From an uncultured Caldimicrobium sp. (GTDB lineage: Bacteria > Desulfobacterota > Thermodesulfobacteria > Thermodesulfobacteriales > Thermodesulfobacteriaceae), in contig CALLJI010000207.1 in assembly GCA_938091475.1 (NCBI GenBank), positions 1 to 23,431 on the forward strand: DNA of 23,431 nt, given 5' to 3'. Position numbers and translations under genes: made by a program. Of this stretch, positions 4,236 to 22,849 are shown piece after piece. The notes beneath the pieces were generated by a model that did not search any database, was not told where the DNA came from, and saw only the letters and a program-made list of their open reading frames with translations. Numbering within the stretch: the stretch's first letter is position 1; each line of letters opens with the position of its first letter.

Positions 4236-4411
4236 GCTTTAACAAACTTTCAAAAAAATTATAAGTTGTATTATATGAGCAAGGCAAGACCAGTTCAAAT
4301 CTGTTAATTTTAGAACAATTCAAGAATGACCCGTGTTAATCATTGAGGGATGGACCTACCCAGAGGTTTTAGGGGTAGGGGCGATTCACGCATTGCTCTG
4401 AGGGGTTTAAT

Positions 4412-4434
4412 GTAGGGGCAAATCACGATTTGCC
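4412..4434. repeat. Palindromic element, inner stem CAAATC
   Basis: GTAGGGGC leads into the perfect inverted repeat GGCAAATC-AC-GATTTGCC (4417-4434). It has the same frame and the same AC centre as the elements at 6823 and 6853, but a different inner stem. Confidence 0.8.
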
Positions 4435-4448
4435 AAAAAAATCAAATC

Positions 4449-4473
4449 GTAGGGGCAACCCTTGCAGTTGCCC
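4449..4473. repeat. Palindromic element, inner stem CAAC
   Basis: GTAGGGGCAAC opens an inverted repeat with arms GGGCAAC (4453-4459) and GTTGCCC (4467-4473) around a 7-base loop, CCTTGCA. Confidence 0.75.
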
Positions 4474-4494
4474 AAAATTGTTTTAAACCCCTTT

Positions 4495-4515
4495 GGGCAG
4501 GGGTAAGCCCTGCCC
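4495..4515. repeat. Palindromic element, stem GGGCAGGG
   Basis: Perfect arms GGGCAGGG (4495-4502) and CCCTGCCC (4508-4515) flank the loop GTAAG. It belongs to the same cluster but lacks the GTAGGGGC lead. Confidence 0.75.
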
Positions 4516-4532
4516 CTGCATTTGAAACCCTT

Positions 4533-4557
4533 GGGCACGGCGGTGCCGTGCCCCTAC
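4533..4557. repeat. Palindromic element, stem GGGCACGGC
   Basis: Perfect 9-bp arms GGGCACGGC (4533-4541) and GCCGTGCCC (4545-4553) surround GGT and are followed by CTAC. The element from 4550 runs into AAAATATCGGGCAG, and this 22-base junction recurs exactly at 22809-22830. Confidence 0.8.
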
Positions 4558-4604
4558 AAAATATCGGGCAGATGCAAGCTCTACCCTATAAATGAAACAT
4601 TCAG

Positions 4605-4620
4605 GCGATTTTTAAATCGC
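4605..4620. repeat. Short inverted repeat GCGATTT/AAATCGC
   Basis: Perfect 7-bp arms GCGATTT (4605-4611) and AAATCGC (4614-4620) with a TT loop are followed by TCCTCC. This looks like a related, partly decayed element at the downstream edge of the cluster. Confidence 0.6.
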
Positions 4621-4666
4621 TCCTCCTTTTAAAACTTCAAAATATTAACAATTCAATGTAACATAG

Positions 4667-4698
4667 TTTTAACATTTATTGTTAAAATTAACTATAAC
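4667..4698 (+). promoter_or_regulatory. Candidate chemoreceptor promoter with inverted-repeat operator
   Basis: A sigma-70-like pair, TTAACA (4669-4674) and TATAAC (4693-4698), has an 18-base spacer and lies 22 bases before the start codon. A perfect 8-bp inverted repeat, TTTTAACA (4667-4674) and TGTTAAAA (4680-4687) with a 5-base spacer, covers the -35 box and could be an operator. The proposed start site would leave only a short leader carrying the ribosome site. This is prediction by eye. Confidence 0.4.
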
Positions 4699-4720
4699 AA
4701 ACATAAAAAGGAGGAGATAT

Positions 4721-6718
4721 ATGCGTCTTAATCTCGAAATAAAAATATTTATTCTCATTATCCTATCAACTTCTCTTATAATAGGATTTCTCTCTTACAG
4801 CATAATGAAAAGGAACCTAACAGAAAGTTTTCAAGCACGCTTTGAAAGACAAAATCCTCAAATTCACATTATCTTAAGAGGTATAGAAGACAAAATTAAA
4901 ATCTACGCCTCTATCATGGCTCAGGACAAAGAACTTATTAAAGCTTTAGAAAAAGAAGATGTAGGTGCTTTAGAAAAGACACTCACCAGCTATTTCAAAG
5001 AGCTCCATCGATTAGACCCACTAATTTCCACCTTAGAGGTATCAAATAAAGCTGGTATAGTAGTGATGAGGTGGCACAATCCCCAGAAGTGGGGAGATGA
5101 CAATTTTAAAGTTTACACAGTTAGCTATGCCTTAAAAGGGCATATCACCTCTGGCTTTGAAATCTCCCCTACCACAAAAGAAATAGACTATGATGCAGGC
5201 TTGCCTGTAAAATCTGGCGTATCTACACTTTCCTCCTTTAAAGAGGTAGAGAATAGTCAAAAGAAATTAGTTAACTCCTTGCTAATTGCTATTGCTCCCA
5301 TATCTATAATTTTGCTTGTAATTAGTTTTATTTTTGTTTATCTATCATCAAGGAGGATTAATACTTATAATACTCTGATGGATAAATTATCAGCAGGTGA
5401 GCTAGAGGTGATTTTTGACCGAGTTAGATTTAAAGAAAGAGAAAAGATTAATACTTTGAATAGAGGTTTTGTTAATCACGTGCAAAACCTGAAAAATATA
5501 ATCTATCAAATCTTTAACACCACTTTAAAGCTTACTATGTCTTCTGGTAATCTAAGCATAAAAAAAGATATTATTATAAAGGCTTTGAATGAAAATTTTG
5601 TTAGGCTTGAGAGCGTAACCGCAGCCCATAAGCAAATGACAGATACCATAGTAGATATAGCCAAAAATATTACCAAGGCGGAAGAAGATGCTAAATTGAC
5701 TATGAAAAGTGCAGAAGAGGGAAAAAATGTCTTAGGAAGAACTGTGGAACAAATTAGAAAGGTTTATGAAACTACAGAAAATACCTTCGCCTTATTCAAT
5801 AAACTTAATCAGAGTGTGAATGAAATTGGTAATATTGTATCCCTCATCAAGGAGATTGCCGATCAAACCAATTTACTTGCCCTTAACGCAAGCATTGAGG
5901 CAGCAAGAGCGGGAGAAGCTGGTAAAGGCTTTGCAGTTGTGGCAAATGAAGTAAAAAATTTAGCCCAAAACACGATTAAAGCAACCCAAGCTATCTCTGA
6001 ACAAATTGAAAATATTCAAAGGGAAACCTTGGCCACCACAGAATCAATGAATTTAACCAAGGAATTGGTAGAAAGTGCTACCCACGCCACAGAGGAGGTA
6101 AGATCAACTTTTATGGAAATTATTGAATCTGTAGAAAAACTTAAAGATGCTATCGTCTCTATTTCAAGTGCTGTAGAGGAGCAATCTATTGTCTCTAATG
6201 ATGTGGCCAAGCATTTAGAGGGAATTTTTGAGTTTTCTAAGAAAATAGAACAAAAAAGTCACATGTTGGATGAAGCTACCCTTAATATAGACGATGTGGT
6301 GGAAGAATTGAGAAATTTTATCGATATTTTTAAAACCAAGGAGAGTGAAGTTTATATGTTGGATCTGGCTAAATCTGACCATCGGATATTCTTAGAAAGG
6401 ATTGAAAATGCCTTAGATGGTTTTATAACCTTAGACCATATGGCTTTAGCAGACCATACTCAATGCCGTTTTGGTAAATGGTATCACGGTAAAGGAAATA
6501 AACTTTTGGGGCATTTGTCTTCTTTTAAGGCCATTGATGAGCCTCATAAGAAATTTCACGAGTTAGCCAAAGCCTGTATAACAGCCTATAATGCTGGAAA
6601 AAAAGAGGAAGCAAAAAAGATTTTTGAAAAGATGGAGAAAATCTCTGAAGAGATTGTAAAGTTACTTGAAACCATAAAGATGGACTATTTAGGCAAAAGC
6701 TCCTATAATATATCGTAG
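4721..6718 (+). CDS. Methyl-accepting chemotaxis protein with Cache-like sensor and C-terminal CZB domain
   Basis: This 665-residue chemoreceptor would signal through CheA/CheW to the flagellar motor. Transmembrane segments at about 8-28 and 187-208 enclose a roughly 155-residue extracytoplasmic sensor. That sensor's [11 protein letters not shown] (117-127) and SGFEISP resemble single-Cache sensors; the ligand is unknown. A weak HAMP-like linker leads to the signalling hairpin tip [20 protein letters not shown] (378-397) and [20 protein letters not shown]-terminal CZB domain follows, with its usual His/Cys/His/His zinc set at His554, Cys582 ([12 protein letters not shown]), His609 and His613. 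CZB domains respond to zinc and oxidants such as hypochlorite in characterised receptors. I chose the ATG at 4721 because AAAAGGAGGAG lies just upstream; an in-frame TTG at 4679 falls inside the promoter region. The gene stands alone between two palindrome clusters. Confidence 0.93.
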
Positions 6719-6750
6719 TTAAATACAATTTTGAGAGCTCACATTGTAGA

Positions 6751-6782
6751 GGCTGGGCTTGCCCCAGCCCAAAGGTTTTTTT
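6751..6782 (+). terminator. Hairpin plus T-run after the chemoreceptor, possible terminator
   Basis: Arms GGCTGGG (6751-6757) and CCCAGCC (6763-6769) close a CTTGC loop 33 bases after the stop codon. A run of seven T residues (6776-6782) follows after CAAAGG. The gap between stem and T-run is longer than in a classic intrinsic terminator. The hairpin also belongs to the palindrome family by composition, so the terminator role is tentative. Confidence 0.4.
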
Positions 6783-6822
6783 CGTAAAGGCGGTTCCCGA
6801 GTCGCTCTATTAAACCCGTAGC

Positions 6823-6840
6823 GGCAATTCACGAATTGCC
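6823..6840. repeat. Palindromic element, inner stem CAATTC
   Basis: Perfect inverted repeat GGCAATTC-AC-GAATTGCC, preceded by CGTAGC. It matches the element at 4417 except for one stem base pair (CAAATC to CAATTC), changed on both arms. Confidence 0.8.
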
Positions 6841-6848
6841 CGAAGAGT

Positions 6849-6872
6849 GTAGGGGCACGGCACGCCGTGCCC
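6849..6872. repeat. Palindromic element, stem GGGCACGGC
   Basis: GTAG precedes the perfect inverted repeat GGGCACGGC-AC-GCCGTGCCC (6853-6872). The stem is the same as at 4533, with a different centre. Confidence 0.8.
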
Positions 6873-6878
6873 AATGGG

Positions 6879-6895
6879 GCAACCGCATGGGTTGC
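6879..6895. repeat. Palindromic element, stem GCAACC
   Basis: Arms GCAACC (6879-6884) and GGTTGC (6890-6895) flank GCATG, with GGG just upstream. It is shorter and less regular than its neighbours. Confidence 0.55.
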
Positions 6896-6969
6896 GGATA
6901 CTATTTTTTTAATGATTCTTGGGCACAGCAAGAAAACCCTTGCAATTTTTGAAACAAACTTTCAAAAAA

Positions 6970-6997
6970 TTGACAACTGTCAAAAAAATGATATTAT
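6970..6997 (+). promoter_or_regulatory. Sigma-70-type promoter of the first activator, nearly leaderless
   Basis: A consensus TTGACA (6970-6975) and TATTAT (6992-6997) are separated by 16 bases. The expected start site (about 7003-7006) is almost at the ATG at 7007, and no ribosome-binding site is visible, so the transcript may be leaderless. The -35 box is half of a perfect inverted repeat, TTGACA-AC-TGTCAA (6970-6983), a plausible repressor site. Confidence 0.6.
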
Positions 6998-7006
6998 TTT
7001 TTCATA

Positions 7007-8035
7007 ATGAGCTACCTTCTTGAAACTTTTAATCCTCTTATGCAAGAGGTTTTGCAGATAGCTAAGAAGGTAGCTCTTTCCTCGAGTACGGTCCTTTTAC
7101 TCGGTGAATCTGGAACGGGAAAAGAGGTTTTAGCAAGATATATCCATTACGCAAGTGGCAGAAAGGGTGCCTTTGTAGCTATCAATTGTGCAGCCATTCC
7201 AGAAGAACTCTTAGAAGCAGAGCTTTTTGGTTTTGAAAAGGGGGCTTTCACAGGGGCTGTAAAAGCCAAACCAGGCAAATTTGAATTAGCCAAAGAGGGC
7301 ACCCTTTTTTTAGATGAAATAGCAGATCTACCTTTAAAATTACAGGCCAAACTCTTAAGAGCTATTCAAGATAAGGAGATTGAACGGTTAGGCGGAGAAA
7401 AACCCATAAAGGTGAACACCCGCCTCTTAGCAGCAACCAATCAGGATTTAGAAACTTTAGTGAAGTTAGGTCAATTCAGGGAGGATTTGTATTTTAGGCT
7501 AAATGTCATTCCCCTTAAGCTTCCTCCTCTCAGAGAGAGAAAGGAGGATATTCCTCTTTTAGCAGAATTTCTTCTTAAAAAAATTTGTGAAAGGGAAAAA
7601 TTACCCTTAAAAAAGCTAACTTCTGAAGTTTTACAAGCCTTTACTTTGTACCACTGGCCAGGAAATATAAGAGAATTTGAAAATGTCTTAGAAAGGATGG
7701 TAATTTTATCTGAAAGAGAAATCTTGACTTTGGAGGACTTACCTCGGTATATTCGAGAAAAAATTAATTCTATGGGAGAGCCCCAAATCACGAAGAGAGA
7801 AACTCAGGAAAGAGAAATTATTGAGGAAAGAAGTTTTTTTACTACTAAATACTTAAATTATCCTCATTTAGAAAATGGTGCTATATCTTTGCAAGATTTT
7901 TTAAAGGAGATAGAGATTTTTTATCTAAAGAGGGCTTTAGAAATCTCCGGTGGTGTAAAAAGTAAAGCCGCTAAACTTCTGGGTTTAAATAGAACAACCT
8001 TAATTGAAAAGCTAAAAAAATATAACTTGGCATAG
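7007..8035 (+). CDS. Sigma-54-dependent transcriptional activator without receiver domain
   Basis: This 342-residue AAA+ enhancer-binding protein would remodel RNA polymerase-sigma-54 at flagellar promoters. It has a Walker A GESGTGKE (33-40), the sigma-54 contact loop GAFTGA (79-84), a Walker B TLFLDEI (99-105), the FREDLYFRLNV arginine-finger region (157-167) and a C-terminal Fis-type helix-turn-helix (about 314-340, KSKAAKLLGLNRTTLIEKL). The AAA+ domain begins almost at residue 1, so there is no receiver, PAS or GAF input domain. Activity must be set by expression, partner proteins or oligomerisation. It is the first gene of the flagellar block. It shares a 29-base identical stretch around Walker A (7094-7122) with the second activator (10354-10382). 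FleQ/FlrC-like roles are inferred from context only. Confidence 0.93.
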   Translation: MSYLLETFNPLMQEVLQIAKKVALSSSTVLLLGESGTGKEVLARYIHYASGRKGAFVAINCAAIPEELLEAELFGFEKGAFTGAVKAKPGKFELAKEGTLFLDEIADLPLKLQAKLLRAIQDKEIERLGGEKPIKVNTRLLAATNQDLETLVKLGQFREDLYFRLNVIPLKLPPLRERKEDIPLLAEFLLKKICEREKLPLKKLTSEVLQAFTLYHWPGNIREFENVLERMVILSEREILTLEDLPRYIREKINSMGEPQITKRETQEREIIEERSFFTTKYLNYPHLENGAISLQDFLKEIEIFYLKRALEISGGVKSKAAKLLGLNRTTLIEKLKKYNLA

Positions 8036-8042
8036 AAATTGT
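8028..8042 (+). promoter_or_regulatory. Imperfect -24/-12 element before the TPR gene
   Basis: TGGCAT-N5-TTGT resembles the sigma-54 consensus TGGCAC-N5-TTGC, with GT in place of the key -12 GC. It overlaps the stop codon of the preceding gene and would give a leaderless transcript of the next one. The evidence is weak. Confidence 0.15.
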
Positions 8043-8054
8043 ATTTAATTGATT

Positions 8055-9902
8055 ATGTTACGCCCTTTTTATATTCTCCTAAGTTTATTCATTTTAACAG
8101 GGTTAATTTTGAAGGGAAGTTCTCTTGCCAAAGAGAGAGGTGAGAATAAAAGGGAGGTTATTAGAGGGATTTTATATAATGCATCTTCTTTTACTCCAGA
8201 GGCAGACAGCTTAAAAAAAATTACAGAAGCCTATAAGGAGAAGGCTTACGAGAGAGTAATAAAGCTTTATCAAAAGCTACCTCCCTTTACTCAAATTGCT
8301 CCAGAAGAGTTTTTGATAGTGGCTGAAAGTTACTTTAAGATAGGGGATCTAGATAAGGCTTTAGATTTAGCAGAGCGCGCTCATAGTTTAAGAAGAGGCA
8401 CACAAATTGCTTGTGAAGCCTCCCTTTTGAAAACGAAATCCCTTTTGATCTTGGGAAAAGAAAAAGAAGCTTTAAAGGAACTTTCAGGCTTGGAAGAGAG
8501 TTATTGTAAAGATGTGCTTGAAGAGAAGATAGAGCTCATTAAGATCTATATAAACCAAAAGGGAAGAGAAGGTCTTGATTTCAAAAAATATTCCTCTTTT
8601 ATAGAAGAAATCTTTGAAGCAAAAATTAACTATTTGTTAAAAAAAGGATGGATAAAGGAAGCGGAAAGGGAAATTTTTAATTTTTTAAATCTTACAGGGT
8701 TTTACCAAAGGGGGAAGGATTTCTTTTACAAACTGGCTGAAGCTTATTATGAAAAGGGAGATATCTCAAAGGCTAAAAAGTATTACCGGTTGATTATAAC
8801 TGACTGGGATCCCTCTAAAGAGGCTTTCTTTGCTAAATTTAGGTTATATCAAATAGCCTATGAAAGGGCAATTCTCAAGGAGCTTTTACCGCCTAAGACA
8901 ATAGAAGATTTGCTTTTGTTTATCTCCCAAATAAAGACTAAATATTCAGAAGAAAAAATAGCAGAAGAGGCAGCTTTCTTAGAGGTTAAAATTTATTTTG
9001 AAAAAAAGGATTGGGAGAGAGCCAGAAAGAGCGCCAAGGAATTTTTCAAACGCTATGAAGAGAGTTCTTTTCGGAGTAAGGTGCGAGACTATTTTTGCCA
9101 GGCCTCTTTTAACTTGGTTCCAGAGGTATTTGCCAGAGGGAAAATCTCAGAACTTCAAGAAATAGCGCGTAATGATTGGGACCTTTTTAAAAGAGAGGCT
9201 TGTGGCGACTTTTATTATGCCTTAGGCTCTGTTTTCTTTAACTACAAATTGTATACACAAGCCCTTTATTATCTTTTATTTACCTATGATATTAACCTAT
9301 CCCGAAAACATTTGCCAGATTACTATTTGAAATTGGCCTTTTTATCTCTGGAAAAGACAGAAAGAGAATTGTCTCAAATGCTCTTTAATTACATAAAGAA
9401 AACTTGGAAGGATACCCTAAAAAGTAAGCCAGAATTTCTCTATTTGGAGACCTATTTTGCCTTAGAGAGGGATTTAACCTTAGGGATAAAGTTATTAATG
9501 GACTTACTATCCTCTGATATAGCCTCTTATTATAAAAAAAATCTTCTCTATAAAGCCTTTTTACAAGCTGTAGAGGCAAAAAAATATAACATAGCCTTAA
9601 CTTTATTACAAAATCCTCATTATAATGCCACATTAAAGGATTACTTAGTTTTACTTTCTGATACCTTAGATAAAGATCCTCAATTTTTTGAAAAACTTTT
9701 AAGGGAGGCCAAGGAAAAATTTCCAAAAAACGATAAACTTCTTTTCTTAGAGGCCTATCATTTGGAGAGGAAAGGAAATCTCAAGGCAAGAGCTGAGTTA
9801 TGGGGTAAATTAGACCAGTCTAAGGATTGGGAGGGGAAATTAGTGCAACAATACGAAAAAATGCAAAAACTTTCAGAGAGAGCAAGAAATCTTGTCTATT
9901 AG
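8055..9902 (+). CDS. Secreted TPR-like repeat protein in the flagellar operon
   Basis: I do not recognise a named family for this 615-residue protein. It starts with a signal peptide (about residues 1-25, hydrophobic [15 protein letters not shown], then SSLA); there is no lipobox cysteine, so a soluble or anchored periplasmic protein is likely. The rest is helical with TPR-style A/Y/G spacing, for example [40 protein letters not shown], and repeated xxYxLGxxFFNYKLYxQAL patterns. Such proteins usually act as scaffolds. It sits 19 bp after the first activator and its stop is one base before the ATG of the second. A role in flagellar assembly or in controlling the activators is inferred from position only. 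The start could be ATG 8055 or TTG 8049; neither has a clear ribosome site. Confidence 0.8.
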
Positions 9903-9903
9903 T

Positions 9904-11286
9904 ATGCTCGATAAGATCGGAATTGTAGGGTCTTCTATAGAAACAAAACTTCTTAAGGAGGCTTTAGAGGAACAAGGTTTAGAAGTTCTTTTTTATGAGC
10001 ACGGAAACTTTACATTAGACCTTATCACGCCAGAGATTAAAGTTTTAGTTTATGAATTATCTTCAAAAAGGGATAATCCTCATCTTGTAGAAGCCCTTTT
10101 GAAGGAGAAAACTTTTTCACTCCTTTTATTGGTGGATGAGATCTCCCTGGATAAGGCTATAGAACTTATTAGAAAGGGAGTTAGGGATATCAAACTTTTG
10201 AGCTCTCCCTTAGAATTGATAGAAAAATCGGTCCTTTCAGTTTTTAAGGAAAAAAAGCTTTCAGGTTTAGAGGAGGTATTTCTTACTTGTGAGCCCAAGC
10301 TTTTAAAAATTTTAGGTGCCTTAGAGGAAGTTGCCAAAACAAAGGCTCCTGTACTTTTACTCGGTGAATCTGGAACGGGAAAGGAGCTTTTAGCTAAATA
10401 CATCCATCAAAAAAGCTCTCGCAGGGAAGGACCCTTCATTGCTATTAATTGTGCTGCCCTTCCTGAAACTTTGCTTGAATCTGAACTTTTTGGGTACGAA
10501 AAAGGTGCTTTTTCTGGAGCAAATTTCAGAAAAAAGGGAAAAGTTGAATTAGCTGATCAGGGTACCCTCTTTTTAGATGAAATTGCCGAAATGAGTCTGC
10601 ACCTACAAAGTAAACTTTTGAGAGTGCTTCAAGAGGGAGAAGTAGATAGATTGGGAGGTTATCATCCCGTTAAAGTAGATTTTCGCCTAATCTCAGCTAC
10701 TAACAAGCAACTTGAAAAGGAAATCTCCGAGAATAAATTTCGAAGTGATCTATTTTATCGTATAAATGTAATTACAGTAAAGATTCCGCCTCTCAGAGAA
10801 CGAAGAAACGATGTCAAATTTTTGGCCAACTATTTTTTGGAAAAATTTTCCAGAGAATATGGAAAAACTTTCAAGGGATTCACAGAGAAAGCTCAGAAAT
10901 TTCTAATGAACTATCCCTTTCCAGGAAATGTAAGAGAGCTCAAAAATATGTTGGAGAGAGCAGTAATAACCTGTAAAGAAGAGTATCTTGATGTCAAAGA
11001 TTTGACAAATCCCTTAGAGGAGAGTTTATCTGGAGAGGAGTTTAGGGCCTTTTCTAAGATAGAAGAGCCAGAAAAAGTATCAGAAATAGGCATAAATTTT
11101 GATATTTCTAATTTTGAGATAAAACCCTTGGAGGAGATGGAAAGAGAGGCTATTTTAAAAGCTTTAAAATTAACTAAGGGTAATAAAAGTAGGGCAGCTG
11201 AACTTTTAGGAATTACTGTGAGGACCTTAAGGAATAAACTTAATGAGTATAGGGAGAAAAATTTGCTCTCTTGGGAGGAGGTTTAA
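9904..11286 (+). CDS. Sigma-54 activator with degenerate receiver (FleQ/FlrC-like)
   Basis: This 460-residue activator has an N-terminal receiver-like fold (about 1-118), an AAA+ domain and a Fis-type helix-turn-helix (427-450, [19 protein letters not shown]). The receiver is not standard: the acidic pair after strand 1 is replaced (IGIVGSS) and the phospho-acceptor position reads VLVYELSS, with Glu51 where Asp is expected. Phosphorylation is therefore unlikely. Walker A GESGTGKE is at 154-161, Walker B TLFLDEI at 221-227, and the sigma-54 loop reads GAFSGA (201-206) in place of GAFTGA; Thr-to-Ser is a conservative change there. I chose ATG 9904 over the in-frame TTG at 9892, which lies within the upstream gene. 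flgB follows with a 2-bp gap, so it probably controls the genes it precedes. Confidence 0.92.
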
Positions 11287-11288
11287 GG

Positions 11289-11684
11289 ATGTGGGGGGCC
11301 TTTCAGAAACTTTTGGATACAGTCAGACTTTCTCTACATTTTAGAGGACTTCGCCATCAAATGCTTTCCTCTAATCTTGCTAATGTAGATACACCAGGTT
11401 ACAGAAGAAAGGACCTTCCCTTTGAGAAAATTATGCAAAGTTATTTAACTTTCAAATCTCCCTTAAAGACAACTCATCAAAGGCACTTTTCACAACGAGA
11501 GAGAACCATTGAAGATTTCCTAAGAACTTCACAACCTTCCACCCTTGGAACACCTAATAATGTGAGTTTAGAAGAAGAAATGGTAAATCTTACGGAGAAT
11601 CAGCTCCTTTACGAAAGTACCCTACAGGCACTAAGCAAGGAGATAGAAAGACTCAAGGAGATTATTACAGAGGGAGGTAGATAG
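11289..11684 (+). CDS. flgB: Flagellar proximal rod protein FlgB
   Basis: This 131-residue rod protein is exported through the flagellar type III apparatus and forms the proximal rod with FlgC, FlgF and FliE. The N-terminal family motif SSNLANVDTPGYRRKDLPFE lies at about residues 27-46, and the C-terminal helix EEEMVNLTENQLLYESTLQAL is typical. Its length matches FlgB (about 130). I chose ATG 11289 because the strong GGAGGAGG site at 11274-11282 precedes it; an in-frame TTG at 11271 would swallow that site. flgC follows 2 bp after the stop. Confidence 0.95.
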   Translation: MWGAFQKLLDTVRLSLHFRGLRHQMLSSNLANVDTPGYRRKDLPFEKIMQSYLTFKSPLKTTHQRHFSQRERTIEDFLRTSQPSTLGTPNNVSLEEEMVNLTENQLLYESTLQALSKEIERLKEIITEGGR

Positions 11685-15013: not shown

Positions 15014-15770
15014 GATAATTAAAGCGGAAAAATTGAATCTGCATGAAGTAATTCAGCCCAAAATAGAAGTCAAAGAAGACTTCTCACTTCTTATAGAAAT
15101 AAAAGATGAAATTTATCTAAAGAGAGATGAGGGAGTGGTAGAGGAAGAGAGAAAAGAAGAGAGTAATTCAGCCCTTGAAGAGGTATTGTCAAGAGCTTAT
15201 GAAGAGGGTTTTAAGAAGGGTTTTGAAGAGGGATGGGGCAAAGGCGAGAAAGAGGGGTATGAAAAGGGTCTGAGTTTAGGACTTGAGGAAGCTCAAAAAC
15301 TTTTAGCTCAAAGAGAAAGGGAACTCGAAGAAAAGTTTCAAGGGGAGTTGATAAGAAAAGAGCAAGAAATTGAGCAATTTCTAAAAAAAGCTGAGGAAGA
15401 ATTAAGATTATTAATTTTAAACTTAGACCAAGAAATTCTTAAACTGGCATTATCTATGGCCCAAAAATTAGTTTTAAAAGACTTGGAAGTTGATAAAGAG
15501 TATCTTTTAAGAATCCTACGGGAGGCTCTCAATTATATTGTTGAAGGTACAGAGATTGTGATTAAAGTAAATCCTGAGGAATACTCTTTTCTTGAAAATA
15601 AGATGGAAAAAAGGGCACTTCCCATCCACAACTATAAAGTGAAAATAGTTTCAGATGCCTCTATTTCAAAGGGAGGTTTATTTATTGAAACCAAAATGGG
15701 TGCCATTGATGCTACACTTGAAAAGAGATGGGAAAAACTCTTAACCCAACTTGAAAATTATGCAAGTTAA
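15006..15770 (+). CDS. fliH: Flagellar export ATPase regulator FliH (TTG start)
   Basis: This 254-residue protein binds FliI and links the export ATPase to the basal body. It has a variable acidic N terminus, then an unbroken series of glycines every fourth residue (Gly68, 72, 76, 80, 84, 88 and 92) giving six consecutive GxxxG steps, a known FliH feature. A coiled coil (about 95-140) and a C-terminal V-ATPase E-subunit-like domain (about 150-250, with VIKVNPEEY and DASISKGGLFIET) follow. No ATG is usable in this frame before residue 150, so the TTG at 15006, overlapping the fliG end and preceded by AGAGGAGAAG, is the start. Translational coupling to fliG is likely. Confidence 0.92.
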   Translation: MSKIIKAEKLNLHEVIQPKIEVKEDFSLLIEIKDEIYLKRDEGVVEEERKEESNSALEEVLSRAYEEGFKKGFEEGWGKGEKEGYEKGLSLGLEEAQKLLAQRERELEEKFQGELIRKEQEIEQFLKKAEEELRLLILNLDQEILKLALSMAQKLVLKDLEVDKEYLLRILREALNYIVEGTEIVIKVNPEEYSFLENKMEKRALPIHNYKVKIVSDASISKGGLFIETKMGAIDATLEKRWEKLLTQLENYAS

Positions 15771-17070
15771 ATCCATAAAGAGGTATATTTCTAAACTTGA
15801 AGAGTTTACGCCTTTTGAGGTGTATGGCTATATAACTAAGGTTACGGGGATATTACTTGAAAGCTCTGGACCAAAGCTTAGAATTGGCGATCTATGTCGG
15901 ATTGTAGGAAAAGAGGTTGAAACCTTAGCAGAGGTAGTAGGATTTAAAGAAGATAAATTAAGCTTAATTGCCTTAAAGGAGATTCAGGGTTTAGAGATTG
16001 GGGCTAAGGTAATACCTTTAAATAGATGGCATTGTCCTGTAGGTAGCTCATATATTGGAAGGGTGGTTAATGCCCTGGGAGAACCCATAGACTATAAAGA
16101 ACCACCTGCACCTGAGGATTTTTATTCTCTTTATGGGGATCCACTCAAGCCTTTAGAAAGGGATAGAATAAGGGAGATTTTAGATGTAGGTATAAAGGGT
16201 ATAAATATCTTTTTAACTATTGGTGTGGGACAAAGAGTGGCTATTATGGCTGGATCCGGGGTTGGGAAAAGCACCCTTCTGGGGATGCTGGCTAGATACA
16301 CCAAAGCAGATATAAATATCATTGCCCTAATTGGCGAGAGGGGAAGAGAGGTAAGAGAATTCATAGAGAGGGATTTAGGAGAAGAGGGTTTAAAGAGATC
16401 AGTGGTCGTTGTCTCTACTTCAGATGAAAGTCCAGCCCTGAGAATTAGAGCTGCCTATTATGCCACAGCTTTGGCTGAGTACTTTAGAGATCAAGGAAAA
16501 AAAGTCTTATTACTTATGGATTCCCTAACCAGATTTTGTATGGCTGGAAGGGAGATTGGCTTAGCCAGTGGAGAGCCTCCGACCGCACGAGGTTACACCC
16601 CTTCTGTTTTTGCTATGCTTCCAAGGCTATTGGAGAGGGCAGGGCCTAAAATAGGAGCAGGTGCTATCACAGGGATTTATACAGTTTTAGTGGAAGGAGA
16701 TGATATGAATGATCCAATTGCAGATGCAGTGAGAAGTATTGTAGATGGGCATATTGTTCTCTCAAGAGACTTGGCTCAAGAAGGGCATTATCCACCCATA
16801 GATATTTTGGCGAGTATTTCCAGAGTTATGAGGGATATTGTATCAAAGGAACAAATTCTTCTCACTCAAGAAGCCATAAGTCTTTTAGCTACCTATAGAA
16901 AAGCAGAAGATTTAATCAATATCGGAGCCTATGTAAAGGGATTAAATCCAGAAATAGACCAAGCTTTAGAATTGGTACCTAAGATAAAAGCCTTTTTAAA
17001 GCAAGAGATAGAAGAAAGTTGCTCCTTGGAAGAAGGAGTAAATCAGTTAAGAGAAATATTAAAAGGTTAG
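15760..17070 (+). CDS. fliI: Flagellum-specific export ATPase FliI
   Basis: This 436-residue F1-beta-like ATPase energises flagellar type III export. Walker A GSGVGKST is at about 165-172, Walker B KVLLLMDSLTR at 248-258, with PPTARGYTPSVFAMLPRLLE and a GAITGIYTVLVEGDDMNDPI block that are diagnostic for FliI/SctN rather than for F-type ATPase. The ATG at 15760 overlaps the fliH stop by 11 bp; an alternative in-frame TTG at 15751 would add three residues. fliJ follows after 3 bp. Confidence 0.96.
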   Translation: MQVKSIKRYISKLEEFTPFEVYGYITKVTGILLESSGPKLRIGDLCRIVGKEVETLAEVVGFKEDKLSLIALKEIQGLEIGAKVIPLNRWHCPVGSSYIGRVVNALGEPIDYKEPPAPEDFYSLYGDPLKPLERDRIREILDVGIKGINIFLTIGVGQRVAIMAGSGVGKSTLLGMLARYTKADINIIALIGERGREVREFIERDLGEEGLKRSVVVVSTSDESPALRIRAAYYATALAEYFRDQGKKVLLLMDSLTRFCMAGREIGLASGEPPTARGYTPSVFAMLPRLLERAGPKIGAGAITGIYTVLVEGDDMNDPIADAVRSIVDGHIVLSRDLAQEGHYPPIDILASISRVMRDIVSKEQILLTQEAISLLATYRKAEDLINIGAYVKGLNPEIDQALELVPKIKAFLKQEIEESCSLEEGVNQLREILKG

Positions 17071-17073
17071 GAG

Positions 17074-17514
17074 ATGAAAAGGAAGGTCAAACTTCTTAAA
17101 CTGCTTTCCTGGTACAAAAAACTCCAGGAAGAAAATTGCAAAGTCAGAGTCTATTATGCCAGAGCGAATTTACAGAAACTTCTTGAGGAAAAAAACTTAA
17201 TTGAAGAGGAATATAAAGAGAGCTCTGAGTATTTGGAAAGTAAGGGGAGTTTTAATGGAGAGGAGTTTAGGGCATGGTTAAATTATTTACAAGTCCTTTT
17301 AGAGTTTAAAGAAATTGCCGATAATAAAGTGCAGATGCAAAAGGAAATTTTAGAAAAACTTAAAGAAGAGCTACAATCACTTCATAGAGAAAAAAGGCTT
17401 GTAGAGAGATTCACAGAAAAAGTGCTATTTAGGTTTAATATGGAAGAGTATAAGAGGGCAATTAAAGAGTTAGATGAACTTACCTTATTAAGAAAAGGGA
17501 GAGGTCTTGCTTAA
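17074..17514 (+). CDS. fliJ: Flagellar export chaperone FliJ
   Basis: This 146-residue, strongly charged coiled-coil protein (LLSWYKKLQEENCKVRVYYA to the C terminus) has the size, composition and position of FliJ, the stalk-like partner of FliI. FliJ sequences are poorly conserved, so identification rests on length, predicted long helices and location directly after fliI. The start has TAGGAG four bases upstream. It overlaps the next gene by 8 bp. Confidence 0.85.
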   Translation: MKRKVKLLKLLSWYKKLQEENCKVRVYYARANLQKLLEEKNLIEEEYKESSEYLESKGSFNGEEFRAWLNYLQVLLEFKEIADNKVQMQKEILEKLKEELQSLHREKRLVERFTEKVLFRFNMEEYKRAIKELDELTLLRKGRGLA

Positions 17515-18043
17515 GGTTTTTAAATTAAGAAATCTTATTAAAGTTTTATTACTCATAGTGATTTTTAAATTTATCTTGGCTTCCTTCTACTTTATTTCAG
17601 TGACCGCTCCTCTTTCGGCTAAGGAGAGTAATGCCACATTTACTTGTTCTCCTGAGGTCTCTGATTTTCTTCATTTGGAGAAGGAGCGAATACTTTTGAA
17701 GGCTAAGGAACTTGAAAGCCGAGAAAGGGAGCTTAAGCTCTATGAAAAGAGATTAGAGGAACAAATGAATGCTTTAATGCAACTATCCCAAGAGGTAGAG
17801 GAAAAACTGAATAGGATTTCTGCTATTCAGGATGAGAGAGTAAAACTTTTGGTTAAGGCCTACTCTGAGATGACCCCATCTAAAGCGGCTCAACAACTTA
17901 TCAATATGGATAGGGAGATGGCTGTGAAGATTTTGAGTCAGTTAAAGAGTAATCAAGTAGCAAGCATTTTAAGTGCTATGCCTCCTGAGAAAGCAGCTGC
18001 TATGGCTGAGGCTCTCTCAGGCTATCCTCCAAAAGAAATTTAG
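17507..18043 (+). CDS. MotE-like flagellar protein with MgtE N-terminal-like domain (TTG start)
   Basis: This 178-residue protein has one transmembrane segment (about 10-31), a coiled coil (about 55-110) and a C-terminal domain, MTPSKAAQQLINMDREMAVK to about residue 172, like the MgtE N-terminal/FliG-type helical repeats. This is the MotE architecture, a periplasmic chaperone for a stator-associated protein in some bacteria, and such genes often follow fliJ. The start is a TTG overlapping the end of fliJ, with AAGGGAGAGG upstream; no earlier ATG exists. It is the last gene of the flagellar run. Its final 44 bp overlap the opposing tatC-family gene and no terminator is visible between them. 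Confidence 0.8.
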   Translation: MLKVFKLRNLIKVLLLIVIFKFILASFYFISVTAPLSAKESNATFTCSPEVSDFLHLEKERILLKAKELESRERELKLYEKRLEEQMNALMQLSQEVEEKLNRISAIQDERVKLLVKAYSEMTPSKAAQQLINMDREMAVKILSQLKSNQVASILSAMPPEKAAAMAEALSGYPPKEI

Positions 18044-18743
18044 ATCCTTTGATGAGTTTTCCCAAAAGTAAACCTAATTCAAAAAGAAGATAAATAGGCA
18101 GGGCAAGAAGACTCATATTAATAGCATCAGGAGTAGGTGTTACAATAGCAGAGAATAACACAATAAAGAAAAAGATTTCTTTACGATATCTGGTAAGTTT
18201 TACAGGGTTTAATATGCCAATTAGACTTAGAACAGACAAGAATAAGGGCAATTCAAAGATAAATCCAAAGACTAAAAGAAAAAAACTAAAAAAATTAACA
18301 AAGTGGGATAGGGAGATAGCCGCCTCTAAAGTTTCTGTCTTAAAGGAAATCAAAAATTTTATACCATAAGGTAAGGTAATAAAATAAGCAAAGGCAATGC
18401 CTGAATAGAAAAAGACCAATCCTAAAAGATAGAGAAGCAGTAAGAATTTTTTTTTAAGAGAAAGCATAAAGTCTATGAGAGAAAGTATTCCCAAATATAC
18501 TAATGGAAAGGTTATTATGATAAAGAGAGTGAAAGTGAATTTTAATAAGGCTAAAAGGGGTTCTGTTGGGGTGAAAAAGACAAATTTTTGTTGAAATCTC
18601 TTTTGTAGATAGAGCAAAAGTTCAGGAGATAACCAAAAAAGCGACAGGAAAACCGCAAGAGCAAGTGGCAAAAGTAGAAGCCCTTTTTTTCTTAAGAAAA
18701 AAAAGCCTCTTTTGAGGGCTCTAATAAGAGAAGCGCGTTCCAT
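18000..18743 (-). CDS. tatC: TatC-family protein translocase subunit, atypical N terminus
   Basis: This 247-residue integral membrane protein has six hydrophobic segments (about 22-38, 66-90, 99-121, 144-170, 188-202 and 211-230), as in TatC, the receptor of the twin-arginine export pathway. Family hallmarks are FFTPTEPLLALLKF, the FFYSGIAFAYFITLPYGIKF block, FGFIFELPLFLSVLSLIGIL with Glu164, and the C-terminal RYRKEIFFFI...TPTPDAINMSLLALPIYLLFE. The HLxELRxR motif expected near the N terminus is missing; RALKRGFFFLRKKG is found in its place. The second acidic signal-binding residue (Glu103 in E. coli) has no obvious match either. It could be a diverged TatC or a paralogue. It lies 9 bp after purQ, probably co-transcribed, and its 3' end overlaps the flagellar operon. 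Confidence 0.85.
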   Translation of the reverse strand: MERASLIRALKRGFFFLRKKGLLLLPLALAVFLSLFWLSPELLLYLQKRFQQKFVFFTPTEPLLALLKFTFTLFIIITFPLVYLGILSLIDFMLSLKKKFLLLLYLLGLVFFYSGIAFAYFITLPYGIKFLISFKTETLEAAISLSHFVNFFSFFLLVFGFIFELPLFLSVLSLIGILNPVKLTRYRKEIFFFIVLFSAIVTPTPDAINMSLLALPIYLLFELGLLLGKLIKGSKFLLEDSLREPQP

Positions 18744-18752
18744 TAGAGGCGT

Positions 18753-19565
18753 TTAAAGCACATTTTTTTTCACCCAATTAACCCCATTTTCAAAGATAAG
18801 GAGCCCTTGAGGATAGGAAAGGTTTAGCCGTGTCCAACGAGGGTGATTGGTGACATCATTGAAGGCCTCTGGATGGGGCATAAGCCCAAAGATTCTTCCA
18901 GTGGGATCACAAAGACCAGCTACAGCTTTTTGTGAACCATTGGGATTATAAGGGTAAACTTGGGTAGGTGCCTTAGTTTCAGGATCAATGTATTGAAGAG
19001 CTATTTGACCATTAATTTCCCATTCTTTTAAAAGCTCTTCATTTTCAGCCACTAATTTCCCTTCGCCATGTCTTACAGGTAGGTACAGCTCTTCAAGCCC
19101 TTGAAGAAATACACAAGGGGTGTTAGCCTTTACCTTTAAATGAACCCATCTATCTTCAAACTTTCCCGAATCATTATAGGTAAGGGTAACCTTTCTTTGT
19201 CCTAAATAGGGTCCTCCAGGGAGGAGACCAGTTTTTACTAAAAGTTGAAAGCCATTGCAAATTCCAAGCATTAGGCCACCTTGTGCAAGAAACTTTATGA
19301 ATTCTTCCCAAAGAGGGATTTTACCTTTGATTTTTAAATATCTAAAACGATGGGCACAAGCCTGAGCAGAACCTAAGTGATCCCCATTTAAAAAACCACC
19401 TGGAAAACATAAGATGTGATAATTAAGCAAGCTTTTTTCTCCGGACAAGATCTCTGAGAGATGAATTATTTCAGCAGAAGCCCCCACCTTTTCAAATACG
19501 AATTTCGTCTCCTCTTCGCAATTAATTCCATATCCCCATAACACTAAGACTTTTACCTTTTTCAT
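18753..19565 (-). CDS. purQ: Phosphoribosylformylglycinamidine synthase, glutaminase subunit
   Basis: This 270-residue class I glutamine amidotransferase supplies ammonia to PurL in the fourth step of purine synthesis. The N-terminal WGYGINCEEET block is a PurQ signature, FPGGFLNGDHLGSA follows, and the catalytic triad is visible as Cys103 in LGICNGFQLL and His221/Glu223 in GLMPHPEAF. At about 270 residues it is longer than the 227-residue Bacillus enzyme and similar to longer PurQ variants. I chose the ATG at 19565 because GGAAAAGGGG precedes it; an upstream in-frame start at 19619 would add 18 residues with no family match. No other pur gene is nearby. A divergent promoter region lies upstream. 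Confidence 0.93.
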   Translation of the reverse strand: MKKVKVLVLWGYGINCEEETKFVFEKVGASAEIIHLSEILSGEKSLLNYHILCFPGGFLNGDHLGSAQACAHRFRYLKIKGKIPLWEEFIKFLAQGGLMLGICNGFQLLVKTGLLPGGPYLGQRKVTLTYNDSGKFEDRWVHLKVKANTPCVFLQGLEELYLPVRHGEGKLVAENEELLKEWEINGQIALQYIDPETKAPTQVYPYNPNGSQKAVAGLCDPTGRIFGLMPHPEAFNDVTNHPRWTRLNLSYPQGLLIFENGVNWVKKNVL

Positions 19566-19583
19566 CCCCTTTTCCTTTCCATC

Positions 19584-19611
19584 TTGGCAATCATCTTGAT
19601 TAGAGTATAAT
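19584..19611 (+). promoter_or_regulatory. Promoter of the ChaN/PDZ fusion gene
   Basis: TTGGCA (19584-19589) and TATAAT (19606-19611) with a 16-base spacer form a near-consensus sigma-70 promoter. The expected start near 19618 gives a leader of about 32 bases. The ribosome site before ATG 19650 is weak (AAGAG). Confidence 0.6.
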
Positions 19612-19618
19612 AAACCCA

Positions 19619-19646
19619 ATTATACCTCTAAACTTAAAAATCCCAA
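19619..19646 (-). promoter_or_regulatory. Promoter of purQ-tatC
   Basis: Read on the minus strand, TTGGGA (19646-19641) and TATAAT (19624-19619) have a 16-base spacer. The expected start near 19612 lies about 47 bases before the purQ ATG. The two opposing -10 boxes are separated by only 7 bp, so polymerase could hardly occupy both at once. Confidence 0.55.
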
Positions 19647-19649
19647 GAG

Positions 19650-22454
19650 ATGAAGAGATTGATTTTACTTTTCATATGTTTTCTGCTTCCCGCTTTAGCT
19701 TTGGCTAATCCTATTCCAAGTAGATATCAATTAGAAGTTGTAACTGAAAAAAATTTGCTTAAGGGGAAGGCTCAATTTGAGTTGCTTAGAGAGGGTTTAT
19801 ATGAGTTTAATAAAGGGAATTTAAAAATTCTCTCCATAGAACTTGACTCTAAGCCTCTCAAAATAACTTCTTCTGCCGATACAAATACCCTTAGAATTTT
19901 TAATCCTCAAAAAAAAGGTACCTTAGAAATTAGCTTTGAAGTTAACTTAGAGACTGGCAATACCCTTTATCCACAAATCTTGGAGGACTATTTACCCTAT
20001 CCCAAAGATGCTTTCTTGTGGGAAATGACCCTCAATGTTAAAGATGAAAAGGGTTTAAATCTTTTTATTCCTTACGAAGAAAAAGAAGCAATAAATGAAG
20101 AAAAGAATCTCTATAAAATAACAAAACCTTTATTGAAACCACCTCCTTTGATCAGGGGTTCTTTTATTCATAGAAAACTATCCTTTACAGGGGGAGAACT
20201 TGAATTTTTATTTCCAAAATTCTCTTCCGAGCAAGAATGGAAGGAATTTGAAAGATATTTTCAAAAAGAAATCGTCAAATACCCCTTGCCTGAGGTACTT
20301 TTTCCTTTCAAAAAATTGTATTTTATGCCTTTTTTTGAAAAAAGAAGCTATCCTCTACTAACTTTACTACCCTTAAATTTAAAGGAGGGATATGAACCAA
20401 TTTTGGAAGCTCAGATCAGCCAAACTCTTAAATATGGCTTAAATCTGCACCAATCCTATCTTTTAGAAGGTCTAAAAACTTATTTAACCTCCTATGTTCT
20501 TTCACCCACAAAAAAAGAATTTAGAAAAAAGCTCCTCTTAAGAGATAGCGAAGAAGCCAAGGCTTTCTTTTATCTTTATGAAAAAATAGAGAGTATAGGA
20601 GAAAAGGCCTTTGAGGAATTTTTGAAAAACTATGTGCAGAGATATCTTTTTAATGGTTCCACAGAGGAGCTTTTTATAGGAAATTTATCTAAACTTGCCA
20701 ATTCCTCCTTTAAGGTGGATTTTGAGACCTTCCAAAAGGTTGATTTAATTACGGAATTTGAAGTATCCTCTTTAGAGAATGAAAATAGATTTTTTTTAAG
20801 GGTTAAAATTTTGCAGGAGAGGGCTTTTAGACCCTTTCCCCTTGAAATAGTGGTTGAAACTGAAAAAGGAGAAAAGATTAAAAGAAAGCTCTATTTAAGC
20901 CATAAGGAAAATTTCTTTGATTTGTTTTTTACTCACAAACCCCTCAGAGTCACTCTGGATGATGAATATAAAATCTATCGTAGCCTCTCCTTTGAAGAAT
21001 CCCCTTTTACTTGGGAGAGACTTTTCTCAAGTAAAGGTATAATCTATCTTGCTAAAAAAGAGGCACTACCTCTATATAGAGATTTGATCACTAACCTAAG
21101 GGAAAAGGGCTATTCACTTAAATTTGAGTCTCTGGAGCTTAATTCCTTACCGAGAGAAAATCTAATTTTTCTGGAAACCTTACCTATAAATTTTCATCTT
21201 CCCTCTCCTATGGACGGTTTTTATTTTAGAATTCTACCGCATCCCCATTCACAAGATCATTTTTTGGCCTTTATCAAAATTTCCTCTGCTCCGGATCTTA
21301 AAAAAATTCTCTCAAAGAGAGAACAATTAAAGACTGCTCAAGAATTTCACTTTAAAAAAGGAGAATGGGTTTTTAATAGGCAAAATTTTGCAAAAGAGGG
21401 TATAATCCTTGAAATTCAAGAAAAACCCAAATTTTATGGAATGAGGCCACAAGATTTAAAAAGTTTGGAAAATTTTATACCAGAGCTTTTACCTGTTCAA
21501 GTAATTCTCATTGGAGAAAATCATGATGAATATTCCCATCACCTCTTTCAACTTGAGATAATTAAGCAGTTCTATAACCTTGTAGGTCCTCAGGTTGTGA
21601 TAGGACTTGAAATGGTGCAAAAACCCTTTCAAAAATCCTTAGATGATTTTATCTTAGGGAAAATCAGTGAAGAAGAGTTGTTAAAAAAAATTGAGTATTA
21701 TGAAAGGTGGAAGTTTGATTATAGGCTTTATAGAGATATTTTCCTTTTGGCCAAGGAGAAAAAATTAAAGCTCTTAGCCCTTGATCTTCCGCAAGAGGTA
21801 ACAAAAAAGGTTTTTAAAAGTGGATTGAACAATCTTTCAGAGGCAGAGAAAAAATATTTGCCTGAAATGGATCTAAATAATCCAAGTTATAGGGAATTCC
21901 TAAGAAAGGTTTTTTGGTTGCATAATTTTGATAATGGAACCAACTTTGAGTATTTTTATCAAGCTCAACTTCTTAGAGATGAAGCTATGGCTGAAGAAAT
22001 AGTTAATTTTTTGAAAAAAAATCCAGAGAAGAAAATGATTGTTTTAGTGGGTAAAGGACATATTCAGGATAAGTATGGCATACCCTGGGCCTTAAAGAAA
22101 AGAAATTTTTCTAATTTTAAAACTATAGTTTTAGGAGAAGTAGAAATTTTATCTCCTGTGCTTGCAGATTATTGGTTTAATCCGGGTCCTATGGAGTACG
22201 AAAAAAGTCCTACCCTGGGAGTTGTAGTGGAGGAGGTTCAAGAGGGCTTGGTTATAAAGGAGGTCAAAAAAGGCTCCCTGGCTGACTCGCTTAACCTCAA
22301 ACCAGGCGATATACTCTTGATGTTAGACAATAAACCATTAAAAAAGATAGCTGATTTAAAAATACTACTTACCTTTAAAAGAAAAGACTCGGAAATATAC
22401 TTAAAGATAAAAAGGAAAGAGGAAACGCTGGATTTAAAAGGTAATTTAAAATAG
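19650..22454 (+). CDS. Exported fusion: degenerate M1-peptidase-like region, ChaN-type domain, PDZ domain
   Basis: This 934-residue protein begins with a signal peptide (1-19, ending ALALA) and is probably periplasmic or membrane-attached. Residues 20 to about 330 resemble an M1 aminopeptidase layout: a beta-rich start, then AQISQTLKYGL where HExxH would be expected, then HQSYLLEGLKTYLTSYVL like the WxxEGxAxYL segment. The zinc ligands are absent, so it is probably a pseudo-peptidase. A middle region (about 345-610) has no recognisable match. Residues 618-840 form a ChaN/Cofac_haem_bdg-type domain, with ILIGENHDEYSHH, VVIGLEMVQ and VLVGKGHIQDKYGIP. Residues about 855-930 are a PDZ domain (GVVVEEVQEGLVIKEVKKGS, then LKPGDILLMLDNKPL). 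ChaN binds haem in Campylobacter; haem binding here is not shown. Expressed divergently from purQ. Confidence 0.85.
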   Translation: MKRLILLFICFLLPALALANPIPSRYQLEVVTEKNLLKGKAQFELLREGLYEFNKGNLKILSIELDSKPLKITSSADTNTLRIFNPQKKGTLEISFEVNLETGNTLYPQILEDYLPYPKDAFLWEMTLNVKDEKGLNLFIPYEEKEAINEEKNLYKITKPLLKPPPLIRGSFIHRKLSFTGGELEFLFPKFSSEQEWKEFERYFQKEIVKYPLPEVLFPFKKLYFMPFFEKRSYPLLTLLPLNLKEGYEPILEAQISQTLKYGLNLHQSYLLEGLKTYLTSYVLSPTKKEFRKKLLLRDSEEAKAFFYLYEKIESIGEKAFEEFLKNYVQRYLFNGSTEELFIGNLSKLANSSFKVDFETFQKVDLITEFEVSSLENENRFFLRVKILQERAFRPFPLEIVVETEKGEKIKRKLYLSHKENFFDLFFTHKPLRVTLDDEYKIYRSLSFEESPFTWERLFSSKGIIYLAKKEALPLYRDLITNLREKGYSLKFESLELNSLPRENLIFLETLPINFHLPSPMDGFYFRILPHPHSQDHFLAFIKISSAPDLKKILSKREQLKTAQEFHFKKGEWVFNRQNFAKEGIILEIQEKPKFYGMRPQDLKSLENFIPELLPVQVILIGENHDEYSHHLFQLEIIKQFYNLVGPQVVIGLEMVQKPFQKSLDDFILGKISEEELLKKIEYYERWKFDYRLYRDIFLLAKEKKLKLLALDLPQEVTKKVFKSGLNNLSEAEKKYLPEMDLNNPSYREFLRKVFWLHNFDNGTNFEYFYQAQLLRDEAMAEEIVNFLKKNPEKKMIVLVGKGHIQDKYGIPWALKKRNFSNFKTIVLGEVEILSPVLADYWFNPGPMEYEKSPTLGVVVEEVQEGLVIKEVKKGSLADSLNLKPGDILLMLDNKPLKKIADLKILLTFKRKDSEIYLKIKRKEETLDLKGNLK

Positions 22455-22545
22455 TATAGAGGTGTTATTCCTAAGGTCAGGCACACTTTTTTACTGTTTT
22501 GAATTGTCAAATTCTTCTTTATTCGCTTTCTATTATTGAATTGTA

Positions 22546-22571
22546 TTGTAGGGGCTCAGCATGCTGAGCCC
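22546..22571. repeat. Palindromic element, stem GGGCTCAGC, copy 1
   Basis: TTGTAG leads into the perfect inverted repeat GGGCTCAGC-AT-GCTGAGCCC (22552-22571). All 26 bases recur identically at 22682-22707. Confidence 0.85.
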
Positions 22572-22616
22572 AAGAATTTAAAAATCGTAGTGGCTGCCCT
22601 TGTAGCTGCCCATAAT

Positions 22617-22641
22617 GGGCAAGGCGATGCCGTGCCCCTAC
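22617..22641. repeat. Palindromic element, stem GGGCAAGGC/GCCGTGCCC
   Basis: The arms GGGCAAGGC (22617-22625) and GCCGTGCCC (22629-22637) pair with a single mismatch and are followed by CCTAC. It is a slightly decayed relative of the elements at 4533 and 6853. Confidence 0.7.
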
Positions 22642-22655
22642 ATAAAAAAGGTAGC

Positions 22656-22673
22656 CGCAGGCTTTAGCCTGCG
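22656..22673. repeat. Inverted repeat CGCAGGCT-TT-AGCCTGCG
   Basis: Perfect 8-bp arms (22656-22663 and 22666-22673) with a TT centre are preceded by GTAGC. Six T residues follow on the minus strand after GGCTACC, so it could act as a distant terminator for the HU gene, but a repeat-family origin is as likely. Confidence 0.65.
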
Positions 22674-22681
22674 AAAAATAC

Positions 22682-22707
22682 TTGTAGGGGCTCAGCATGC
22701 TGAGCCC
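22682..22707. repeat. Palindromic element, stem GGGCTCAGC, copy 2
   Basis: Exact 26-base copy of 22546-22571, 136 bp downstream and in the same orientation. The identity argues for recent duplication or conversion. Confidence 0.85.
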
Positions 22708-22794
22708 TAAGGGTTTAAAGGTTTAAACTTTGAGGGTAATTCAGGAATTGACTTGATTTGTAGAGGTAAATCACGCTTTGCCACAAAAAAATGA

Positions 22795-22814
22795 GCGATT
22801 CGTGAATCGCCCCT
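22795..22814. repeat. Palindromic element, stem GCGATTC, reversed orientation
   Basis: GCGATTC-GT-GAATCGC (22795-22810) is followed by CCCTAC. With the CCCTAC end on the right and GT in the centre, it is the reverse complement of the GTAGGGGC...AC... form. Confidence 0.75.
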
Positions 22815-22823
22815 ACAAAATAT

Positions 22824-22849
22824 CGGGCAGGGGCTAGCCCAGCCCCTAC
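22824..22849. repeat. Palindromic element with GGGCTAGCCC core
   Basis: GGGCAGGGGC and GCCCAGCCCC pair imperfectly around a self-complementary GGGCTAGCCC, ending in CTAC. It follows the element at 22795 with the spacer AAAATATC, the same junction seen at 4550-4571. Confidence 0.6.

Follow-up and report, generated by a model that had tools for sequence, protein, structure and literature searches.

The hairpins that occupy three intergenic gaps of the analysed DNA are very probably GTAG-tagged REPs, non-autonomous elements copied by a RAYT transposase of subclass 2.4 (encoded on contig C217) that would need the tag, the foot and the pairing of the stem, while resident copies decay one arm at a time. 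The DNA in question, hereafter the window, is a stretch of 23,431 nucleotides, contig C207 of a 1.26 Mb assembly that is 72% complete, and its FliI shares 79% identity with FliI of Caldimicrobium thiodismutans; the genus is very probably Caldimicrobium. What the RAYT would recognise is the GTAG tag on the 5′ side, the G-C foot (GGGC/GCCC) and the pairing itself, with little regard to the identity of the inner pairs. Such indifference would allow many paired cores to be amplified, and badly paired variants would be copied less. The expected outcome would be a fixed frame shared by cores that are multi-copy, for the most part fully paired and covarying between classes. Inserted copies would drift afterwards, with pairing lost base by base, and selection would act when copying rather than through arm-to-arm correction in place.

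The element is a hairpin of 24-25 nt, in which the tag GTAG comes first and GGGC and GCCC then enclose a core that is 12 or 13 nt long. An earlier note on the same DNA had described a dozen or more palindromes in the three gaps, and this description was borne out. The scan of the window, allowing up to 6 mismatches against class consensuses derived from genome-wide copies, returned 18 copies (6, 5 and 7 in the first, second and third gap). Seven of them have the exact frame, and two extend a few bases beyond the gap borders given in that note. The control scan of 61 sampled sequences, reversed, gave 0 matches. A repeat-pair search on the three gaps gave 0, 0 and 4 pairs at the chosen settings, and a tRNA scan of the window found none. 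The elements are as follows.

4375..4398, plus strand: REP copy, GATTC class, 3 mismatches
4412..4435, plus strand: REP copy, AAATC class, 1 mismatch
4449..4473, plus strand: REP copy, AGCCC class (AACCC-type core), 3 mismatches
4495..4519, minus strand: REP copy, AGGGC class, 2 mismatches
4533..4557, minus strand: REP copy, ACGGCACCGCCGT class, exact
4603..4626, minus strand: decayed REP copy, GATTC class nearest, 6 mismatches
6746..6770, plus strand: REP copy, AGGGC..CCCCA class (TGGGC core), 2 mismatches
6784..6807, plus strand: decayed REP copy, GATTC class nearest, 6 mismatches
6818..6841, plus strand: REP copy, AATTC class, 1 mismatch
6849..6872, plus strand: REP copy, ACGGCACGCCGT class, exact
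6877..6901, minus strand: decayed REP copy, AGCCC class, 6 mismatches; the aligned copy on contig C105 has a GTGT..ACAC frame
22548..22571, plus strand: REP copy, TCAGC class, exact; the counterpart on contig C63 has two one-arm changes
22587..22611, plus strand: REP copy, AGCCC class, 4 mismatches
22617..22641, minus strand: REP copy, ACGGCATCGCCGT class, 1 mismatch
22651..22673, plus strand: hairpin of a second GTAG-tagged family, GTAGCCGCAGGCTTTAGCCTGCG, which has 24 exact copies in 621 kb
22684..22707, plus strand: REP copy, TCAGC class, exact
22760..22783, plus strand: REP copy, AAATC class, 4 mismatches
22793..22816, minus strand: REP copy, GATTC class, 1 mismatch
22825..22849, minus strand: REP copy, AGGGC class, 2 mismatches

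The tag is one-sided, since GTAG is present on 372 of 462 copies and CTAC on the opposite side in just 2 of the 462. The direction of the loop is locked to it: read from the tag, the 12-nt cores have AC in 65 of 153 copies and GT in one. Two details of the first description have to be corrected accordingly. Copies on the opposite strand account for the right end written there as 'GCCC(CTAC)', which is their GTAG tag, and the separate 'GT' centre is what 'AC' becomes when the element is read in reverse complement. A one-sided tag with a tag-locked loop argues for copying by the RAYT.

The high copy number in this assembly is another argument for such copying. The pattern GTAGGGGC-N(6-20)-GCCC matched 997 times (447 + 550) in the whole assembly, against 1 + 0 matches in the reversed control. 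Some elements were counted twice by the pattern because two GCCC ends fit, and in 621 kb 564 pattern matches corresponded to 501 distinct starts. In 45 contigs unselected for hits (250,660 bases), 321 copies were present, which amounts to 1.28 per kb and 3.1% of bases. Six same-genus genomes, by comparison, gave 19, 1, 0, 0, 0 and 1 pattern matches. In one genome of this genus, G001, the REP family is smaller and its cores are for the most part 14 nt long (AAACCTATGTGTTT type); this genome gave no Y1_Tnp match at E≤0.001. Among 28 genomes drawn from the 80 RAYT loci described below, the top value, 383 in 3.1 Mb, corresponds to roughly a sixth of the density observed here; double-foot elements are scored twice in those counts.

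A candidate for the copying enzyme is encoded on contig C217, which carries one RAYT ORF, the sole RAYT detected in the assembly. Its product matches Y1_Tnp (PF01797) with 27.7 bits, above the cut-off of 23, and REP_Tyr_transpos (NF047646) in two stretches with an E-value of 7.6e-17; the latter score, 61.5 bits, lies below the curated cut-off of 80 and counts against the RAYT as copier. A search with the sequence gave no PDB match at E≤1. The protein has the motifs NHIH at 91, WQ at 176 and YIINNP at 197. REPs lie on both flanks of the gene, three more are in frame between HuH and Y, and inside the gene one copy is double-foot. By these motifs and by the in-frame and flanking REPs, the protein is a predicted TnpAREP of subclass 2.4. 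The presence of a REP-flanked RAYT gene with three in-frame REPs supports the proposed copying, and that this enzyme would be the copier, and what it would read, are deduced from published work on other RAYTs.

The REPs within the coding sequence deserve separate comment. In-frame REPs in subclass 2.4 are already known, because they were reported by Quentin et al. (2018; PMC6006769). A RAYT alignment, run against named genomes, gave at least 569 confirmed stretches, 80 of which were taken; 66 of these 80 and the C217 gene formed a survey of 67 genes, the other 14 being left out because the motif search was without result. Framed elements were present in 53 of the 67 genes (86 in total, two of which are alternative readings). 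In the in-gene cores of 12, 13 and 14 nt (21, 25 and 14 distinct), pairs 1-4 were Watson-Crick at 0.79-1.00, against 0.31-0.49 in shuffled cores, save for two near-invariant and uninformative pairs (0.79 and 0.93). An in-gene core recurred outside the gene at its own locus in 25 of 84 cases, against 17 of 3308 for cores taken from other genes, which sharpens the question why subclass 2.4 RAYT genes carry REPs in their coding sequence, with the caveat that, of the three cores inside the C217 gene, a single one is abundant. A dominance of in-gene cores over their genome found no support: beyond the gene itself, the 621 kb hold 38, 2 and 0 copies of the three C217 cores, and in four whole genomes of other groups (G068, G065, G066 and G042) many cores in the GTAGGGGC..GCCC frame were found among the matches listed, often with tags on both sides. 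Some cores of the present genome are shared with other groups, again among the matches listed, examples being TCAGCATGCTGA and ACAGCATGCTGT in Nodosilinea and ACGGCATGCCGT in one Chloroflexi genome. A literature text search with the peptide words VGAPLAGA, RAGASPAPT, VGAIHELPL, VGATLAVA, ATARVAPT and VGAGFTPA, taken singly, gave no match. It is conceivable, though unlikely, that subclass 2.4 RAYT genes keep in-frame REPs at one linker as portable seeds, and that a gene moved to a new genome carries paired cores along and can found new REP families there. If true, seed copies would help to account for the recurrence of identical core words in unrelated phyla and for the filling of one lineage with many classes at once.

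The arrangement of the copies bears on a different origin of their number, namely recombination of a few old hairpin clusters without transposition. Neighbouring copies (n=389) are oriented head-to-tail in 275 cases, head-to-head in 70 and tail-to-tail in 44, and the predominance of head-to-tail neighbours speaks against copying by the RAYT. Clusters reach 13 copies, and a class repeats itself in 33 of the 66 multi-copy clusters, as local duplication would predict. Further support for exchange between clusters comes from a second strain. Contig C63 (L206) aligns with window positions 16363-22582 at 95.6% identity, and the assembly looks like a mixture of two or more strains with a DNA identity of about 95% (window 16363-23292 compared with L206). 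The reported contamination of the assembly is 0.54%, despite this two-strain signal. Between the strains, the segments that follow two TCAGC copies (window 22548-22710 compared with L206) are swapped; therefore clusters recombine, and the exchange looks as if recombination had occurred at the REPs. The strain comparison gave no clean presence or absence of one copy, the third gap being rearranged in the second strain and not simply empty. Duplication of this kind is, however, quite unlikely to have produced the copy number: clusters occur in most sampled contigs with classes mixed and with unlike spacers of 5-20 nt, just 17 block pairs longer than 250 bases were found among 102 sampled sequences, and the genome carries a REP-flanked RAYT.

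The position of the copies relative to genes could also reflect a role in RNA. ORFs of at least 120 aa hold 10 of 462 copies, yet cover 76% of the sample, so that the elements are mainly intergenic. At L076 (contig C158, about 1412-1732), seven REP copies lie within open frames of at least 120 aa, which are perhaps spurious or REP-built. Intergenic placement would suit selection on RNA structure in resident copies, acting as stabilisers of mRNA 3′ ends, attenuators or terminators, with pairing under purifying selection at each locus, and such roles have been discussed for REPs (PMC3733652). This possibility is very improbable, however, since pairing is lost on one arm, a Rfam scan of the window gave no family up to the gathering score, and strict copies are absent before the HU gene in six same-genus genomes. 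The gap between the 934-aa gene and the HU gene (the third gap) measures 485 bp with 7 copies in the window; in each of the six same-genus genomes it is 60-114 bp long and free of strict REPs, and this difference is in turn an argument for copying by the RAYT. The gap from the MlaD-like gene to the sigma-54 regulator gene is 67-118 bp in 4 of 6 same-genus genomes, 300 bp with one strict REP in G001 and 823 bp with none in G005; in the window, a chemotaxis-receptor-like gene (4679-6718) and 11 copies lie between these two genes, and the receptor-like gene has no match in the six same-genus loci compared. TTTT falls within 8 nt of the hairpin for 33 of 462 copies when they are read in tag orientation, and for 156 of 462 when the opposite strand is read; by these raw counts, the hairpins may not be general terminators.

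The cores themselves show how copying by the RAYT could account for covarying stems. In 621 kb, 487 strict copies carry 132 cores, 19 of which occur in 5-38 copies each, and the cores are mostly a set of multi-copy words and not a continuum. Sixteen of the 19 multi-copy cores are fully paired, and several are distinct in the loop alone; the three that are not fully paired count against the proposed copying. In the first sample (279 copies), full pairing was observed in 15 of the 17 cores that have 5 or more copies, in 5 of 15 with 2-4 copies and in 15 of 53 singletons, and the contrast between abundant cores and singletons is in favour of the RAYT. Pairs 1-4 of the 12-nt cores (153 strict copies) were Watson-Crick at 0.89-0.97, compared with 0.34-0.45 after shuffling, and at 0.73-0.90 compared with 0.31-0.45 when the 41 distinct cores were counted. 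For pairs 2-4 of the 13-nt cores (126 copies), the values were 0.87-0.94 and 0.45-0.59. Pair 5 of the 12-nt cores is nearly invariant (0.95 in both real and shuffled sets), and there is little covariation at pair 1 of the 13-nt set (0.81 vs 0.76 shuffled). Work on other RAYTs, as reported in PMC8266576, points in the same direction: swaps in the upper stem had no or moderate effect, mismatches in perfect-palindrome REPs cut or nearly abolished cleavage, and GTAG mattered. This tolerance of stem swaps but not of mismatches supports the reading of pairing as the selected feature. In the same source, the RAYT of E. coli needs a mismatched bulge in its REP, and loop bases matter for others; therefore recognition rules differ between RAYTs, which is a point against the proposed reading.

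Within classes the picture is different. The earlier note had proposed that both arms change together, and this holds between classes, where covariation exceeds that of the shuffles, but not within them. In copies with at most 4 mismatches (462 of 513), pair changes were one-sided in 287 cases, compensated in 13 and otherwise double in 7, where assignment to the nearest class under a mismatch limit favours little-changed copies. The 13 compensated changes exceed the 2.4 expected by chance; nine of them come from the AGCCC class, in which the second core pair is A-T or C-G, and this excess in one class is a point against the proposed copying. Compared with their nearest multi-copy core, the 113 minor cores comprise 68 with one-sided changes only, 26 with loop changes only, 7 with compensated changes only, 7 mixed and 5 far. 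The fixed outer frame described earlier was confirmed, the frame pairs being held across 619 copies anchored on tag and core; of their changes, 185 affected one side, 3 were compensated and 8 were double in another way.

The clearest view of change in resident copies is given by homologous copies. The sampled contigs yielded eleven homologous block pairs of at least 250 bases and at least 88% identity; some involve the second strain, others may be within-genome duplicates, and L082, L207 and L211 overlap three ways. The eleven pairs contain 17 copies, 13 of which are gap-free and were counted, and 4 with indels were left out. In the 114 pairs of these 13 copies, 94 were the same, 20 had changed on one side and 0 were compensated, as expected if the copies decay after insertion, although the set is small and some blocks overlap. 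The C63 counterpart of 22793..22816 has an A-C mismatch at core pair 1 (alignment read by eye). Outside the 11 blocks, the copy on C105 (L239, last 200 bases) that aligns with 6877-6901 reads GTGT-core-ACAC, i.e. two compensated pairs relative to the consensus frame; it is a lone hint of symmetric change and stands against copying followed by decay. The covariation across classes, the excess of compensated changes and this C105 frame would suit an arm-to-arm correction in which template switching inside the hairpin rewrites one arm from the other, keeping the pairing of resident copies as the core changes, but the homologous copies, the frame pairs and the minor cores, mostly one-sided or loop variants, make it the least probable of the explanations considered.

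For the first description, this means that symmetric rewriting of the core is not supported. The independent changes on the two arms that it had named as evidence against its claim are largely what was found, and the covariation at the class level stands. It had also excluded a transposon on the grounds that identical cores with random decay were absent, and each class shows nearly such a pattern. Selection on structure, its other suggestion, fits if it acts at mobilisation. More generally, when the stems of a repeat family covary strongly, it does not follow that each copy is under selection or that the arms are rewritten symmetrically; an enzyme that needs paired stems for copying would suffice, as the homologous copies illustrate.

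Among known systems, the hairpins resemble most directly the GTAG-tagged REP super-family of 24 families described by Di Nocera et al. (2013; PMC3733652). In both, GTAG stands 5′ at the foot of the hairpin and on one side only, the length is similar (20-40 nt there, 24-25 nt here), copies are numerous, mainly intergenic and clustered, sub-families have alternative complementary stem residues, and a RAYT lies nearby. Dimers in that account are mostly head-to-head and head-to-tail dimers are rare, a feature that is not defining, whereas head-to-tail neighbours prevail here. Species with several families have repeat-specific REPtrons according to the same source, and here many cores accompany one detected RAYT. 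The C217 protein shares with TnpAREP subclass 2.4 (PMC6006769) the NH[IFV]H, WQ and YIxNNP motifs, a gene flanked by REPs, and REPs in frame between HuH and Y, and the REPs share at least three G-C pairs at the bottom of the stem; relative to subclass 2.4 REPs, the genomic copies here are single-foot, with one double-foot copy in the gene. The string 'Thermodesulfo' has 0 occurrences in the main text of that paper. REPINs (Bertels and Rainey, 2011; PMC3116915) are likewise REP-based mobile units in which compensatory changes on two sides of the hairpin are common, but they consist of an inverted REP pair, and the hairpins were not filed as REPINs because outward inverted neighbours account for 70 of 389. 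Compensatory stem variation as such had thus already been described, in GTAG REPs (PMC3733652) as well as in the hairpins of REPINs (PMC3116915), and a 2025 survey of REPs includes Caldimicrobium thiodismutans as a table row (PMC12306157). What is unusual here is the REP load, the large number of cores next to a single detected RAYT and the head-to-tail arrays, and the REP/RAYT record gains a heavily loaded genome, probably of the Thermodesulfobacteriota.
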